From a virus: a stretch of DNA of 22,907 nucleotides. Where the stretch lies: the IMG/VR virus record IMGVR_UViG_3300023215_001257, positions 1-22,907 of that record, one strand, 5' to 3'. The notes below the pieces were generated by a model. The model saw only the letters and a list, made by a program, of their open reading frames with translations, ran no database searches and was not told the origin of the DNA. Numbering within the stretch: the first letter of the stretch is position 1; each line of letters starts with the position of its first letter. Below are positions 1-4,220 of the stretch, in pieces. Position numbers and translations under genes: made by a program.

Positions 1-116
1 AGAATGCGCGCTATGGGAAAGATGAGTTCGCCAATCAAGTCGGCTATCGTATTAGCGCCTACCGGGCGGATTATACCCTTTGCTTACAAGTTCATAAAAT
101 CATCAACGTGGAGTAA
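1..116 (+). CDS. queE: 7-carboxy-7-deazaguanine synthase QueE, C-terminal end only (partial)
   Basis: The window opens inside an ORF read in the frame starting at base 3 and ending with TAA at 114-116. The 37 visible residues end in YTLCLQVHKIINVE, which fits the usual C-terminus of QueE (a short beta strand followed by L/SxQxHKxxxxx). QueE is a radical SAM enzyme that contracts the ring of 6-carboxytetrahydropterin to 7-carboxy-7-deazaguanine, the step just before QueC. The radical SAM CxxxCxxC region lies outside the window, so it cannot be checked. The GGAG at 110-113, in its last codons, serves as the likely ribosome site for queC at 122. The assignment rests on the short C-terminal motif plus its place directly before queC in a gene set that otherwise lacks only QueE. 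Confidence 0.75.
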   Translation, partial: NARYGKDEFANQVGYRISAYRADYTLCLQVHKIINVE

Positions 117-121
117 TACCA

Positions 122-841
122 ATGGATAAGAATATTCATTTAATGTTTCCGGAAAGCTGGAAAAAAGAAAGCTGTGTTCTAGTAATGAGCGGCGGTCAAG
201 ATTCAACTACCTGTTTAGGTATAGCGCTTGAACATTTCAAAAAGGTGTATTGTATCACCTTTAGTTATGGACAAAAGCACACGGTTGAAATTATGTGCGC
301 TCAAAAGATAATTGAAAACTTTGAAAACACAACGCTTGAAATTATTAATCTGGAACCACTTAAGAAAATTGGTAACAGTGCATTAATTGAAGGTACTGAA
401 CAAACTGACGTTAGTAAAGAACATGCTACTAAAGAAGGTTTACCAGCGTCTTATGTACCAAACCGAAACGCAACGTTCCTAACGCTGTCACACGCTTACG
501 CGCAGAAGGTTGGTGCTAAGTTTGTAATGACAGGTGTATGTGAAACTGACTATAGTGGTTATCCAGACTGTCGTTTAGACTTTATTAATAGCTTATCCTA
601 CACACTTAATATTGGATCTAATAGCGATATTCAAATTTTAACCCCACTTATGAAAGTGGATAAAGCTGACACCTTTAAACTTGCTGAAGAATACCATGTA
701 CTTGATGAAGTTCTCGGCTTGAGCCATACATGTTACAATGGTGATCACAGCACGTTCCATGAATGGGGTTACGGTTGTGGAAAGTGTCCAGCTTGTGAGC
801 TTCGCGCTAAGGGTTGGAAAGAGTTTTTGGAGCGTTACTAG
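122..841 (+). CDS. queC: 7-cyano-7-deazaguanine (preQ0) synthase QueC
   Basis: QueC uses ATP and ammonia to turn 7-carboxy-7-deazaguanine into preQ0, the nitrile base inserted by DpdA. The 239-residue length is normal for the family. The PP-loop SGGQDS sits at residues 23-28. Residues SYVPNRN follow at about 110-116, and the C-terminal zinc site is complete: C204, then C219, C222 and C225 in CGKCPACELR. No amidotransferase (Gat) domain is fused, unlike the Gat-QueC proteins that some phages use to make archaeosine-type bases. The start has GGAG 8 bases upstream, within the end of queE. Its stop codon TAG shares a base with the GTG start of the next gene, so translation is probably coupled. 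Confidence 0.96.
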   Translation: MDKNIHLMFPESWKKESCVLVMSGGQDSTTCLGIALEHFKKVYCITFSYGQKHTVEIMCAQKIIENFENTTLEIINLEPLKKIGNSALIEGTEQTDVSKEHATKEGLPASYVPNRNATFLTLSHAYAQKVGAKFVMTGVCETDYSGYPDCRLDFINSLSYTLNIGSNSDIQILTPLMKVDKADTFKLAEEYHVLDEVLGLSHTCYNGDHSTFHEWGYGCGKCPACELRAKGWKEFLERY

Positions 842-1026
842 TGGCTAAGGTTAGATTTACACCAACCAAAAGAATTAACGTTATGTTATGTGGCGGTCCT
901 TATGATGGTGAAAAGCTTAACCTAGCACATCCGGAAAGCGGGACAATGACCTTTACCGCAAAAGGTGAAACTGGACGTTATGTTTCACAAAGTGCCTGCA
1001 AATTCTTATTATGGGAAGCTGCATAA
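841..1026 (+). CDS. small conserved phage protein of unknown function
   Basis: This encodes 61 residues from GTG 841, which overlaps the queC stop by one base and has GGAG at 829-832, 8 bases upstream. That ribosome site favours this start over an in-frame ATG at 814 inside queC. The protein contains CGGPYDGEKLNL and ETGRYVSQ, a pattern like the short 'GGPxDG' proteins scattered in phage genomes. I do not recognise a function. There is no signal peptide or membrane span. It ends in a TAATG overlap with the next gene. It lies inside the preQ0 cluster, which hints at co-expression but not at a role. Confidence 0.75.
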   Translation: MAKVRFTPTKRINVMLCGGPYDGEKLNLAHPESGTMTFTAKGETGRYVSQSACKFLLWEAA

Positions 1027-1433
1027 TGGACATATTTACTCATGCGGTTGTGGGTGCGGTAGCTGGTTTACAAGTTAACCATCCTATTGTAGGCGCGATT
1101 GCAGGGGTAATGCCTGACGTAGTATTAGGGGTTAACCGTAAATTAGCCCCTAATATCGCATATAAGCTTACACACAGTCTTTTAATTTGTGCTGTGTGTA
1201 GTTTACTGTTAATTGCGTACACCCCGTACGGTGTCGCTGTGTTGGCAGGTTGGCTATCCCATATAATCTTAGATATACCAACACACGGGAAGCAATGGGC
1301 TCCGATGCCTTTGTATCCTTTCAGCAATTTCGCATTTAGATATTTTAACGAATGGGAGTGGTTAGATGCAACGTGGTTCAAAGGTCTTGCATTAGCTATT
1401 TCATTCATATTAATATGCGTCTACTTTAACTAA
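1026..1433 (+). CDS. DUF457-like membrane protein (putative metal-dependent hydrolase, YdjM-like)
   Basis: This encodes 135 residues from ATG 1026 (TAATG overlap with the previous stop; GGGAAG just upstream); an earlier in-frame start at 1011 would extend into the previous gene. The protein begins MDIFTHAVVGA, has PD at about residue 31-32, KLTHS near 48-52, and GWLSHIILDIPTHG near 75-88. These conserved His and Asp residues at membrane borders are the pattern of the DUF457 / YdjM family, whose members are annotated as membrane-bound metal-dependent hydrolases. Hydrophobic stretches lie at roughly 8-35, 50-85 and 116-135. The substrate is unknown. Its place between queC and the queF-like gene is unusual for a membrane protein. 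Family assignment is moderate; enzymatic role is inference. Confidence 0.6.
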   Translation: MDIFTHAVVGAVAGLQVNHPIVGAIAGVMPDVVLGVNRKLAPNIAYKLTHSLLICAVCSLLLIAYTPYGVAVLAGWLSHIILDIPTHGKQWAPMPLYPFSNFAFRYFNEWEWLDATWFKGLALAISFILICVYFN

Positions 1434-1447
1434 CTAGGAACAATCCC

Positions 1448-1714
1448 ATGAAAACTATCATTACTACTTGGTTCCCAATTTTAACTTTTTGTCCGGTTAA
1501 CAACCTTCCGGATTTCATCTTTGTTGAAGTTGAGTTTACCGAGTTTGCAGAGCTGTATGGTGTACGTAAAAAATTACGTAAGTTAATATCTTGCAAGAAT
1601 ATGTATATGGAAGATGTTGCTCAATTGGTTGCGGACAACTTTGCATGCGATAAAGTGACAGTTCGTTTAATGTTTAACAAGCACGTTGTAATGTGGGAAC
1701 GTAAAGATGGCTGA
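1448..1714 (+). CDS. short QueF-like T-fold protein (preQ0 nitrile reductase or QueF-L amidinotransferase relative)
   Basis: This encodes 88 residues with AGGA 8 bases before ATG. It contains CPVNNLPDF at about 15-23, matching the QueF active-site motif CPxTxQPDF, in which the Cys forms the thioimide with preQ0 and the Asp is the acid. About 30 residues on, YMEDVAQLVADNF aligns with the QueF segment FHEDxxNxIxxDL, keeping the substrate-binding Glu but with Met in place of His. Bacterial single-domain QueF is about 150-165 residues and carries an ExKSLK NADPH-binding motif; that motif is not visible here. A short T-fold without it resembles archaeal QueF-L, which adds ammonia to the nitrile to give the archaeosine formamidine. 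The outcome could be preQ1, G+ or no catalysis. Similarity is clear to me by eye; the reaction is inference. Confidence 0.65.
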   Translation: MKTIITTWFPILTFCPVNNLPDFIFVEVEFTEFAELYGVRKKLRKLISCKNMYMEDVAQLVADNFACDKVTVRLMFNKHVVMWERKDG

Positions 1715-1919
1715 TAGCGTTCATTTAGTTGTATTGGCAAACGACAGTTCAGCGTTCGGTATACCGTACAGCGTAGCACACGCAGATAACCTAGATTATC
1801 ATTTTGCAAATGAAGAAAAGTTTGATGATTTCAGAGGTTTAAAAATTCAGAGCGTTGTGTTTGTAGGTACTGTAAGCAAAGAAAATGCTGAAAAATTCAA
1901 AACATTAGTGAGTGATTAA
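1707..1919 (+). CDS. hypothetical protein inside preQ0 cluster
   Basis: This encodes 70 residues, starting 8 bases inside the queF-like gene, with GGAACG upstream of ATG. It is soluble looking, acidic, and has no motif I recognise; the second half (GLKIQSVVFVGTVSKENAEKF) looks like a beta strand followed by a helix. It is followed immediately by queD, so it is tightly coupled to the pathway genes on both sides. Function unknown. Confidence 0.7.
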   Translation: MADSVHLVVLANDSSAFGIPYSVAHADNLDYHFANEEKFDDFRGLKIQSVVFVGTVSKENAEKFKTLVSD

Positions 1920-1920
1920 A

Positions 1921-2379
1921 ATGCCTAAATTATTTAAGAGTACAAAGACGTTTGGCCACAATTTAGGGTTAAGCGCAGCGTTCAGACAATGGCGCGCTAA
2001 TTCACATTGTGCGTTCATACACGGTTACGCTTTACAGGTGGCACTTGAGTTTGAATGTACCGATTTAGACGCTCGTAATTGGGTTGTTGATTTTGGTGAT
2101 TTAAAAGAAATTAAAGAGTGGCTAAAAGACACTTTTGATCATAAAACTTTAGTGGCTAGCGACGACCCATTTCTTGAGCAGTTGCACGTATTGGCACACC
2201 ATAACGTGATTGATATTGTAGTTGTGGAAGCGGTAGGTTGCGAGCGCTTTGCAGAGCTTATCTTTGATAAGGTGGAAAGCTGGCTAAATAGCAAACCTGA
2301 ATATCGTGGCCGTTGTAAGGTGACTAAAGTTGAAGTACGTGAACACGGTGCTAATAGTGCCATAGTTGAAAGCAAGTAA
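1921..2379 (+). CDS. queD: 6-carboxy-5,6,7,8-tetrahydropterin synthase QueD
   Basis: QueD converts dihydroneopterin triphosphate (from FolE) to 6-carboxytetrahydropterin, the substrate of QueE. Numbered from ATG 1921 (152 residues), the catalytic Cys is C30 in SHCAFIHGYAL, H34 is a zinc ligand, VVDFGDLK at 55-62 is the usual 'DFxxLK' motif, D73-H74 match the catalytic DH pair, and E103 matches the C-terminal Glu. Two zinc-ligand positions differ from E. coli QueD: the FxAAHR histidine is Phe (SAAFRQW), and the second His of HGH is Tyr36; H13 or H29 may substitute. This looks like the divergent 'FRQWRA' QueD group. GTG 1912 is in frame but overlaps the previous gene and has no better ribosome site, so ATG 1921 was chosen. 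Confidence 0.9.
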   Translation: MPKLFKSTKTFGHNLGLSAAFRQWRANSHCAFIHGYALQVALEFECTDLDARNWVVDFGDLKEIKEWLKDTFDHKTLVASDDPFLEQLHVLAHHNVIDIVVVEAVGCERFAELIFDKVESWLNSKPEYRGRCKVTKVEVREHGANSAIVESK

Positions 2380-2388
2380 GGAACAGTA

Positions 2389-2967
2389 ATGAAAGATATG
2401 AATAAGCAATTAGTAGAGCTAGCAGTTAAAGATATTTTACACGCAGTTGAAAAGCAAGTTGAGACTGGCGTATTACGTGAAGGTTTACAGGACACCCCTG
2501 CTCGTTATACCAAAGCTATGGCGCACTGGTTTAGCGGTTACGATGCTGACATTTCTGAAATCCTTAAAGTGTTTGAAGACGGTGCGGATAATTACGATCA
2601 AATGGTTATCGTTAAAGACATTCCGATTTACAGCCATTGTGAGCACCACATTGCACCAATTTTCGGAACAGCTACCATTGCTTACATACCGAACGGTAAA
2701 ATAGTCGGTTTGTCAAAGCTGTCACGCTTGGCTGACGCTTTTGCAAGACGTTTGCAGGTACAAGAACGTTTAACTACGCAAATAGCAGACGCGATTGAAG
2801 AACACTTACAACCGCTGGGCGTTGGTGTACTAATTAAAGCGCGACATATGTGCATGGAATCACGCGGTATTTGTCAACAGGGCCATCACACGATAACCAC
2901 AGCTCTGCGCGGTGTTATTAAAGATGAACCTGAAACGCGAGCGGAGTTCATTACGCTAGCTAACTAA
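2389..2967 (+). CDS. folE: GTP cyclohydrolase I FolE
   Basis: FolE opens GTP to 7,8-dihydroneopterin triphosphate, the first step of preQ0 synthesis (and of folate synthesis). The 192-residue product has the full family signature: SHCEHHIAPIFG at 82-93, GLSKLSRLADAFARRLQVQE at 107-126, and CMESRGI at 155-161. Zinc ligands C84, H87 and C155 are present. AAGGAA lies 7 bases before the ATG, right after the queD stop. A phage copy relieves dependence on the small host pterin pool. It is the last gene before the terminator at 2988-3023. Confidence 0.96.
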   Translation: MKDMNKQLVELAVKDILHAVEKQVETGVLREGLQDTPARYTKAMAHWFSGYDADISEILKVFEDGADNYDQMVIVKDIPIYSHCEHHIAPIFGTATIAYIPNGKIVGLSKLSRLADAFARRLQVQERLTTQIADAIEEHLQPLGVGVLIKARHMCMESRGICQQGHHTITTALRGVIKDEPETRAEFITLAN

Positions 2968-3036: not shown

Positions 3037-3285
3037 ATGTTAACATATCTAACGAGTTTCATAGTTACGTTCGTATCTGTGGGGTTGCGCACAATGCAAA
3101 CTCGAAACGTGATGCAGGAACGTTATCTTATACTTTTCGTTAACTCATGGTGTATAGAAGCTTTGTATTTTGCAATCATACTTAAAATATTAACAGCTGA
3201 CGTTTACCATTTTATTGCACTTGGTATGGGTGCATCGTTAGGAAGCGTCACCTTTGTTAAGCTACATAAGAGGTTCTTTAAATGA
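3037..3285 (+). CDS. small multi-span membrane protein of unknown function
   Basis: This encodes 82 residues from ATG 3037; GGAG at 3027-3030 is 6 bases upstream, which argues against an in-frame GTG at 3025 that overlaps this ribosome site. Three hydrophobic stretches lie at about 3-18, 40-56 and 60-76, with a basic C-terminal tail (KLHKRFFK). No recognised family. It overlaps dpdA by ATGA, so the two are translationally coupled; a membrane partner for a DNA-modifying enzyme is not expected, and the link may only be shared expression. Confidence 0.7.
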   Translation: MLTYLTSFIVTFVSVGLRTMQTRNVMQERYLILFVNSWCIEALYFAIILKILTADVYHFIALGMGASLGSVTFVKLHKRFFK

Positions 3286-4220
3286 GCAGTCCGCTTCAAA
3301 TATATCTAGCCGCTGTATATACAAACAGTTATATGCCTGGCGGAAACCGATATCCAAAACTTAATGAACGTGAAGTAGATGTTATGGCAAAAGTTAAAAA
3401 CCATAACATACTAGAGTCTTGGCACTATGTTGGGAAGCAAAAGTATGTTGATAACATGCGTGAAAACAAAGCTAAGATATTTCTGGATTCTGGTGCATTC
3501 TCCGCCTACACACTTGGGGTAACATTAAGTGTTGAAGAATACTGCAATTACATCAAACGCAACCAAGATATTATTCGCGTAGAAGATGGGTCTTTAATGG
3601 CGTCTGTGCTGGATGGTATTGGTGACCCTCAGGAAACCTTTGAGAACCAAATGGCAATGGAGCGTTTAGGGGTTAGACCTTTACCGTGTTTCCATGCTGG
3701 AGAAGATGAGCGTTATTTGGAATGGTACATTAAGAACTATGATTACATTACATTGGGTGGAATGGTAGGTACATCAACCAAACAACTAGAAACTTGGCTT
3801 GACCGTATGTGGAGCGAGTATCTTTGTGACAGTAGTGGTAATCCGCGCATTAAAGTACACGGTTTCGGTATTACGTCAGTTCCATTAATGGAAAGATACC
3901 CTTGGTACAGTTGCGATTCATCTTCGTGGATTCAGTCCGCTGCCTTCGGTGCTATATTTACAGCAAAACACGGGCCGATGTCGGTATCTAGTGAGTCACC
4001 TTCTAGACACGACCTTAATGCCCACATTGAAACGCTCGCACCGCTTGAGCGTGAATATGTTGAAAATATGCTTAAGGACGAAGGTTTTGACCGCGAGCGT
4101 TTGTCTACCGTTTATGAGTCACGTGCTGTATACAATATGTATGCTTATATGCAGGTTAATGACATGATAAACGCAGAGAAGCAAAACAATTATTTAAACA
4201 TGCCTAGAGGGTTATTTTAA
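3282..4220 (+). CDS. dpdA: DpdA-family DNA guanine transglycosylase (7-deazaguanine insertion into DNA)
   Basis: DpdA proteins are relatives of tRNA-guanine transglycosylase that exchange guanine for preQ0 or a derivative in DNA. The 312-residue product has the TGT-like motif FLDSGAFSA at 67-75 (D69 likely general acid/base), VLDGIGDP at 109-116, TLGGMVG at 157-163, VHGFG at 192-196 and CDSSSW at 211-216 (D212 the likely nucleophile position). This is the compact phage-type DpdA. The start overlaps the previous gene (ATGA) and its stop overlaps the clamp gene (TAATG). The presence of the whole preQ0 pathway just upstream strongly supports the DNA role over a tRNA role. Motif placement is seen; catalytic residue roles are by analogy with TGT. 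Confidence 0.88.
   Translation: MSSPLQIYLAAVYTNSYMPGGNRYPKLNEREVDVMAKVKNHNILESWHYVGKQKYVDNMRENKAKIFLDSGAFSAYTLGVTLSVEEYCNYIKRNQDIIRVEDGSLMASVLDGIGDPQETFENQMAMERLGVRPLPCFHAGEDERYLEWYIKNYDYITLGGMVGTSTKQLETWLDRMWSEYLCDSSGNPRIKVHGFGITSVPLMERYPWYSCDSSSWIQSAAFGAIFTAKHGPMSVSSESPSRHDLNAHIETLAPLEREYVENMLKDEGFDRERLSTVYESRAVYNMYAYMQVNDMINAEKQNNYLNMPRGLF

Follow-up and report, generated by a model that had tools for sequence, protein, structure and literature searches.

A QueF-L-like T-fold protein of 88 residues and a linked YdjM-family membrane protein in phage 7-deazaguanine operons

The stretch of DNA analysed here (the window) was the entire 22.9-kb contig of IMG/VR virus record IMGVR_UViG_3300023215_001257 (22,907 nucleotides). 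It was found that its left end carried a preQ0/DpdA (7-deazaguanine) operon on the + strand, with the following features:

3..116, + strand: C-terminal end of QueE (frame-3 translation ends ADYTLCLQVHKIINVE*; the contig begins within the gene)
122..841, + strand: QueC with the Zn-binding Cys motif and no Gat domain (PF06508, E=3e-70; TIGR00364 above cut-off)
841..1026, + strand: small conserved ORF (phrog_12090, E=3.6e-8)
1026..1433, + strand: YdjM-family membrane protein, candidate partner of the next product (PF04307, E=1.3e-8)
1448..1714, + strand: QueF-L-like single-domain T-fold protein, 88 aa (from the ORF, homologues, fold and motif alignment)
1707..1919, + strand: small ORF between the QueF-L-like gene and queD (phrog_35364, E=2.3e-4)
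1921..2379, + strand: QueD-like 6-carboxytetrahydropterin synthase with a variant metal site (PF01242, E=7.4e-20; phrog_2389, E=5.7e-44; alignment)
2389..2967, + strand: FolE, GTP cyclohydrolase I (PF01227, E=3.6e-67; TIGR00063 above cut-off)
3037-3285, + strand: holin-like ORF
3282..4220, + strand: DpdA, the transglycosylase swapping guanine for 7-deazaguanine in DNA (phrog_887, E=7.6e-88)
after dpdA: sliding clamp, then a B-family-like DNA polymerase

The QueE end resembled the QueE of another contig carrying the QueF-L-like gene (L005), the C-terminus of which is YTLCLQVHKIINME. DpdA of the window was 67% identical to that of phage 9g. Its identity to the DpdA proteins of Vibrio phages was 73-77%, and at least two of these phages are listed as Queuovirinae. 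The ORF at 841-1026, between queC and the cassette formed by the YdjM-family and QueF-L-like genes, was also observed in Vibrio phages without the cassette, and no counterpart of the ORF at 1707..1919 was matched in the other loci compared.

The ORF at 1448-1714 started with ATG, with CPVNNLPD at residues 15-22 and MED at residues 54-56 of its product. C15 (nucleophile), D22 (acid/base) and E55 (substrate anchor) aligned in register with Cys55, Asp62 and Glu97 of QueF (B. subtilis numbering). For the chance test this Cys/Asp/Glu pattern was composed after the sequence had been seen. It was present once when the window's ORFs were scanned in six frames, and it turned up in 3 of 200,000 protein shuffles, indicating that it did not arise by chance. 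Homologues were 43-63% identical, with C15, D22, M54 and E55 invariant; in a 12-sequence alignment the invariant positions included W8, C15, P16, V17, N18, P21, D22, E35, L36, Y37, R40, M54, E55 and H79, the last of which sits in the C-terminal hairpin. Three members added later also kept the Cys, the Asp and the Met-Glu pair. Across three close copies of the gene dN/dS was ~0.1-0.25. The protein is real and conserved, and it is probably catalytic. The net charge of the members was near neutral (-1 to +5), and therefore no strong nucleic-acid-binding signature was present.

Single-sequence searches with the window protein gave nothing relevant in Pfam, NCBIfam, PHROGs, plasmids or, by phmmer, the PDB. 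None of 12 members matched Pfam, the window protein was without a match in NCBIfam, and the cut-offs of PF14489, TIGR03139 and TIGR03138 were not reached. A two-sequence profile had no match in the PDB. The first scan of viral sequences with the single protein also returned none, but alignment queries did find relatives. In total, 17 viral contigs were found to carry the gene (12 from alignment-based IMG/VR scans and 3 from a search with the neighbouring YdjM protein, the window and MMDA13 being included in the total), one of them an isolated phage, Sphingomonas phage MMDA13. Among 50,697 phage records the only relative was MMDA13 gp33 (one phage, two records). Bacterial genomes gave one match, on a contig of 55.9 kb binned with a Verrucomicrobiales MAG. 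This contig (L032, PBAL01000089.1) appears identical to a 55.9-kb IMG/VR phage record (L021), and a cellular copy of the gene was rejected because the contig is also a virus record.

QueC, QueD, FolE and DpdA were present in the carrier operons wherever the available sequence extended far enough, and several variants of them were observed. Two of the zinc-binding His of canonical QueD were replaced by Phe and Tyr (SAAFR...HGY versus SAGHR...HGH) in the window (1921-2379), L021, L001 and L043, and the canonical form was found in carriers L005 and L006 and in Vibrio phages L003/L004. An extra N-terminal domain of ~100-130 residues was seen on FolE in several carriers (L006 2111-3094, L039 5062-5784, L044 5122-6012); it contained a PRGG/PVAYAL...DDLIDSGAT-like motif and was phosphoribosyltransferase-like. 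The C-terminal zinc-binding Cys motif of QueC was kept in the window, L005, L021 and L024, and in most carriers it was replaced by SHTSYDGxYPPTDxNHANVLRAxGF... (for example L001 6806-7591, L006 318-1061, L009 5537-6295). A tie between zinc-less QueC and the cassette was considered and rejected, as related QueCs are widespread in phages without the cassette.

An AlphaFold2 model of the 88 residues, built from the 12-sequence alignment, had a mean pLDDT of 91.8. Its elements were ordered E3-6, E11-14, E21-30, H36-47, H54-65, E69-74 and E80-84, giving an antiparallel sheet with two helices on one face in the strand-strand-helix-helix-strand-strand order of the T-fold superfamily. Foldseek against the PDB placed P. 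calidifontis QueF-L at all of ranks 1-12. By VIA-align, QueF-L (5jyx/5k0p) gave a Z of 12.0 over 83-84 residues (rmsd 2.0-2.3 A), B. subtilis QueF (4f8b) a Z of 9.5, and GTP cyclohydrolase I and dihydroneopterin aldolase Z values of about 9-11 (next families 11.0 and below). The T-fold predicted by an earlier note, made from the sequence of the window, was thus supported, and the comparison it had proposed placed QueF-L nearer than QueF. Its description of the protein as half the size of bacterial QueF holds for B. subtilis (165 aa), but archaeal QueF-L (109 aa) is only ~20 residues longer. Profile-profile comparison (hhalign) with a joint QueF/QueF-L alignment gave E=7.7e-5 at a probability of only 62%; Cys, Asp and Glu lined up with their counterparts, and Met fell at the His position. 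Against QueF alone E was 2.2e-4, and against archaeal QueF-L, for which one archaeal sequence was the basis, 0.016. Control comparisons with the T-folds FolE and QueD and with the unrelated YdjM stayed below 1% probability.

According to published criteria, QueF is recognized by Cys55, Asp62 and Glu97 together with the NADPH-binding QueF motif E(S/L)K(S/A)hK(L/Y)(Y/F/W), which contains Glu78, and a sequence without the motif is screened as 'non-QueF' (PMC5372742). The motif was absent in 12 of 12 members aligned, and the C-terminal RGG was replaced. Both were kept by all other phage or virus QueFs aligned (Dp-1, HVTV-1, Cellulophaga phiSM, mycobacteriophage Funsized, Arthrobacter phage Mufasa8, Dinoroseobacter phage R5C and Pseudanabaena phage Pan1). 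Unimodular QueF (B. subtilis; phage Dp-1) shares with the window protein the T-fold, the thioimide Cys/Asp pair and the substrate Glu, but keeps ESKSLKLY, TPRGGISI and the active-site His, all three of which the window protein lacks. P. calidifontis QueF-L is likewise without the QueF motif and RGG, yet has the His; because of the shared absences, the clade is nearer QueF-L than QueF. The earlier note is thereby supported in that an NADPH motif is missing and the protein is QueF-L-like rather than QueF-like.

These observations bear on whether the protein could be a shortened nitrile reductase, which would yield preQ1 and hence dPreQ1 in DNA, as in Dp-1 and HVTV-1. Such a product has a precedent in virus DNA (PMC6884629), and the T-fold, the thioimide Cys/Asp and the Glu would be common to both enzymes. 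Nevertheless, no member has the NADPH motif, RGG is replaced, the published screen classes the protein as 'non-QueF' (PMC5372742) and the structure matches QueF-L better than QueF, so that this reading is considered very unlikely. The equal weight formerly given to dPreQ1 and dG+ is not supported, since the protein has neither the reductase motif nor the C-terminal RGG. The Dp-1 and HVTV-1 proteins, the two phage or virus 'QueF-L' tested so far, were predicted as QueF-L by HHpred, yet mainly dPreQ1 was formed (PMC6884629). This speaks against amidination by the window protein, although in our alignment both retain the NADPH motif.

In the profile alignments M54 was opposite H62, and E55 opposite E63, of P. 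calidifontis QueF-L. Met occupied the active-site His position in every member examined, and a sequencing error or lone mutation was rejected, the residue being fixed across the clade. Thus the Met that had earlier been called unusual is a real substitution, but it is clade-wide rather than a one-off, and the other phage or virus QueFs also vary there (His, Gln or Cys). As far as the alignments tell, it is a lineage trait and the clade's own signature. The His beside the substrate Glu is not given as family-defining in the QueF-L literature cited. Owing to the Met, the protein is named here as a variant, 'QueF-L-like', and not plain QueF-L.

Within the same family, gp33 of MMDA13 (vB_StuS_MMDA13; QHB80466.1), annotated as QueF-like archaeosine synthase, was 48% identical over the alignment. 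It shares with the window protein the operon position, the C/D/ME residues and a YdjM-like neighbour (gp34, annotated hypothetical). It differs in being 10 residues longer, with an insert ahead of the first helix, and the MMDA13 QueC is without the zinc Cys motif that the window QueC has. A 2020 paper already described the MMDA13 protein as an archaeosine synthase of the QueF-L type (PMC7472734), so that the 'new branch' suggested before is not new as such; what stands is a variant clade with a fixed Met. Already known was the annotation in one phage, and the present analysis adds the clade with its fixed Met and a strictly linked membrane protein.

P. calidifontis QueF-L forms a Cys/Asp thioimide with preQ0-tRNA, which is resolved by free ammonium, but not by glutamine, to give G+; whether a partner produces the ammonium was left open by the authors (PMC5485725). 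The window protein resembles it as its best structure match, with Cys/Asp/Glu on a small single T-fold and no NADPH motif, and differs in the shorter chain, Met for His62 and the pairing with a membrane protein; its presumed substrate is DNA (via DpdA) and not tRNA (via arcTGT). We consider it fairly likely that this phage protein works as a minimal amidinotransferase of the QueF-L type, converting preQ0 to archaeosine (dG+). By analogy, C15 would attack the preQ0 nitrile to form a covalent thioimide, D22 would shuttle a proton, E55 would hold the 7-deazaguanine ring, and ammonia rather than hydride would attack the thioimide, releasing archaeosine (G+). The preQ0 would probably be already in DNA rather than a free base.

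The QueF-L-like protein would thus take over the task that the Gat domain of Gat-QueC performs in relatives such as phage 9g, for which dG+ is proven (PMC6884629). The 9g protein has the same predicted end product and operon position, but an unrelated fold and ammonia source. No Gat domain was found in the 17 carrier contigs (flanks are partial for several), and it was present in 9g and JG054; this is consistent with Gat-QueC having been replaced by QueC together with QueF-L and agrees with the earlier statement that QueC is not fused to Gat. The same replacement was proposed by the MMDA13 authors, who inferred archaeosine in a text that does not contain 'mass spectrometry' (PMC7472734). Neither biochemistry nor DNA mass spectrometry for the clade was found in the literature searched, which did not extend to the 2023 phage 7-deazaguanine work (10.1093/nar/gkad657) and the QueF-L crystal-structure paper. 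That the small protein helps to choose the final base, as the earlier note had proposed, is plausible. Our best guess for the product, made with some confidence, is dG+, the alternatives being dADG, dPreQ1 and a carrier role.

The residues that fit amidination are also compatible with hydration, in which water would attack the thioimide to give the carboxamide dADG and the membrane protein would not be an ammonia source. Met for His could change the entering nucleophile. We know of no QueF or QueF-L family member with hydration as its main reaction. Minor dADG is known from phages and viruses that have homologues of ArcS or QueF-L (PMC6884629), but the closest structural relative yields an amidine (PMC5485725), and hydration seems unlikely here. 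A non-catalytic preQ0 carrier or channel to DpdA, leaving dPreQ0 as the DNA base, might suit a very small protein with Met for His, and in phage 9g Gat-QueC seems to hand its product on to DpdA (PMC6884629). Such a role is judged improbable, because every member keeps the nucleophile Cys and the acid/base Asp, which is not expected of a carrier.

A YdjM-family gene was found directly upstream of the QueF-L-like gene in all 17 contigs, usually overlapping it, including 12 of 12 contigs of the QueF-L search set. An independent search with a YdjM alignment gave 16 contigs; the QueF-L-like gene followed in all 15 that contain downstream sequence, and the sixteenth terminates inside the YdjM gene. 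The two frames overlapped by ~13-28 bases in most loci (no start codons were assigned for L006, L021 and L024) and were 14 bases apart in the window. Among the 50,697 phage records a YdjM relative was found in MMDA13 only, which holds for this clade's YdjM and not for every phage YdjM-family protein, as the search was pattern-based and favours this clade. The close Vibrio phages pVco-14 and vB_VhaS-tm had the operon except for these two genes. We did not find this linkage reported in the literature, and it was also missing from the earlier note.

All 12 YdjM members matched PF04307, with H6, D31, H50, H79, D83 and H87 conserved; this pattern of six His/Asp is suggestive of a metal site. The model of the YdjM-like protein had a pLDDT of 89.7 and showed no credible relative among solved structures. 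From the linkage, the protein is probably a dedicated partner of the QueF-L-like protein, possibly for ammonia supply or membrane tethering. More tentatively, the two might together make up a two-component archaeosine synthase with DNA as its substrate, the membrane protein delivering ammonia or otherwise activating the enzyme; this is less likely than not. If true, it would be, to our knowledge, the first dedicated QueF-L partner and the first DNA-modification function for a PF04307 protein.

The gene pair suggests a two-gene kit for altering the way in which phages mask their DNA against the restriction enzymes of bacteria. Its occurrence in every genome examined makes the ammonium-partner question left open by the 2017 QueF-L work directly testable, and the protein offers a very small, tractable enzyme for asking how one T-fold active site picks reduction (preQ1), amidination (G+) or hydration (amide). 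For uncultured phages whose gene escapes every family model, dG+ is now predicted from genomes.
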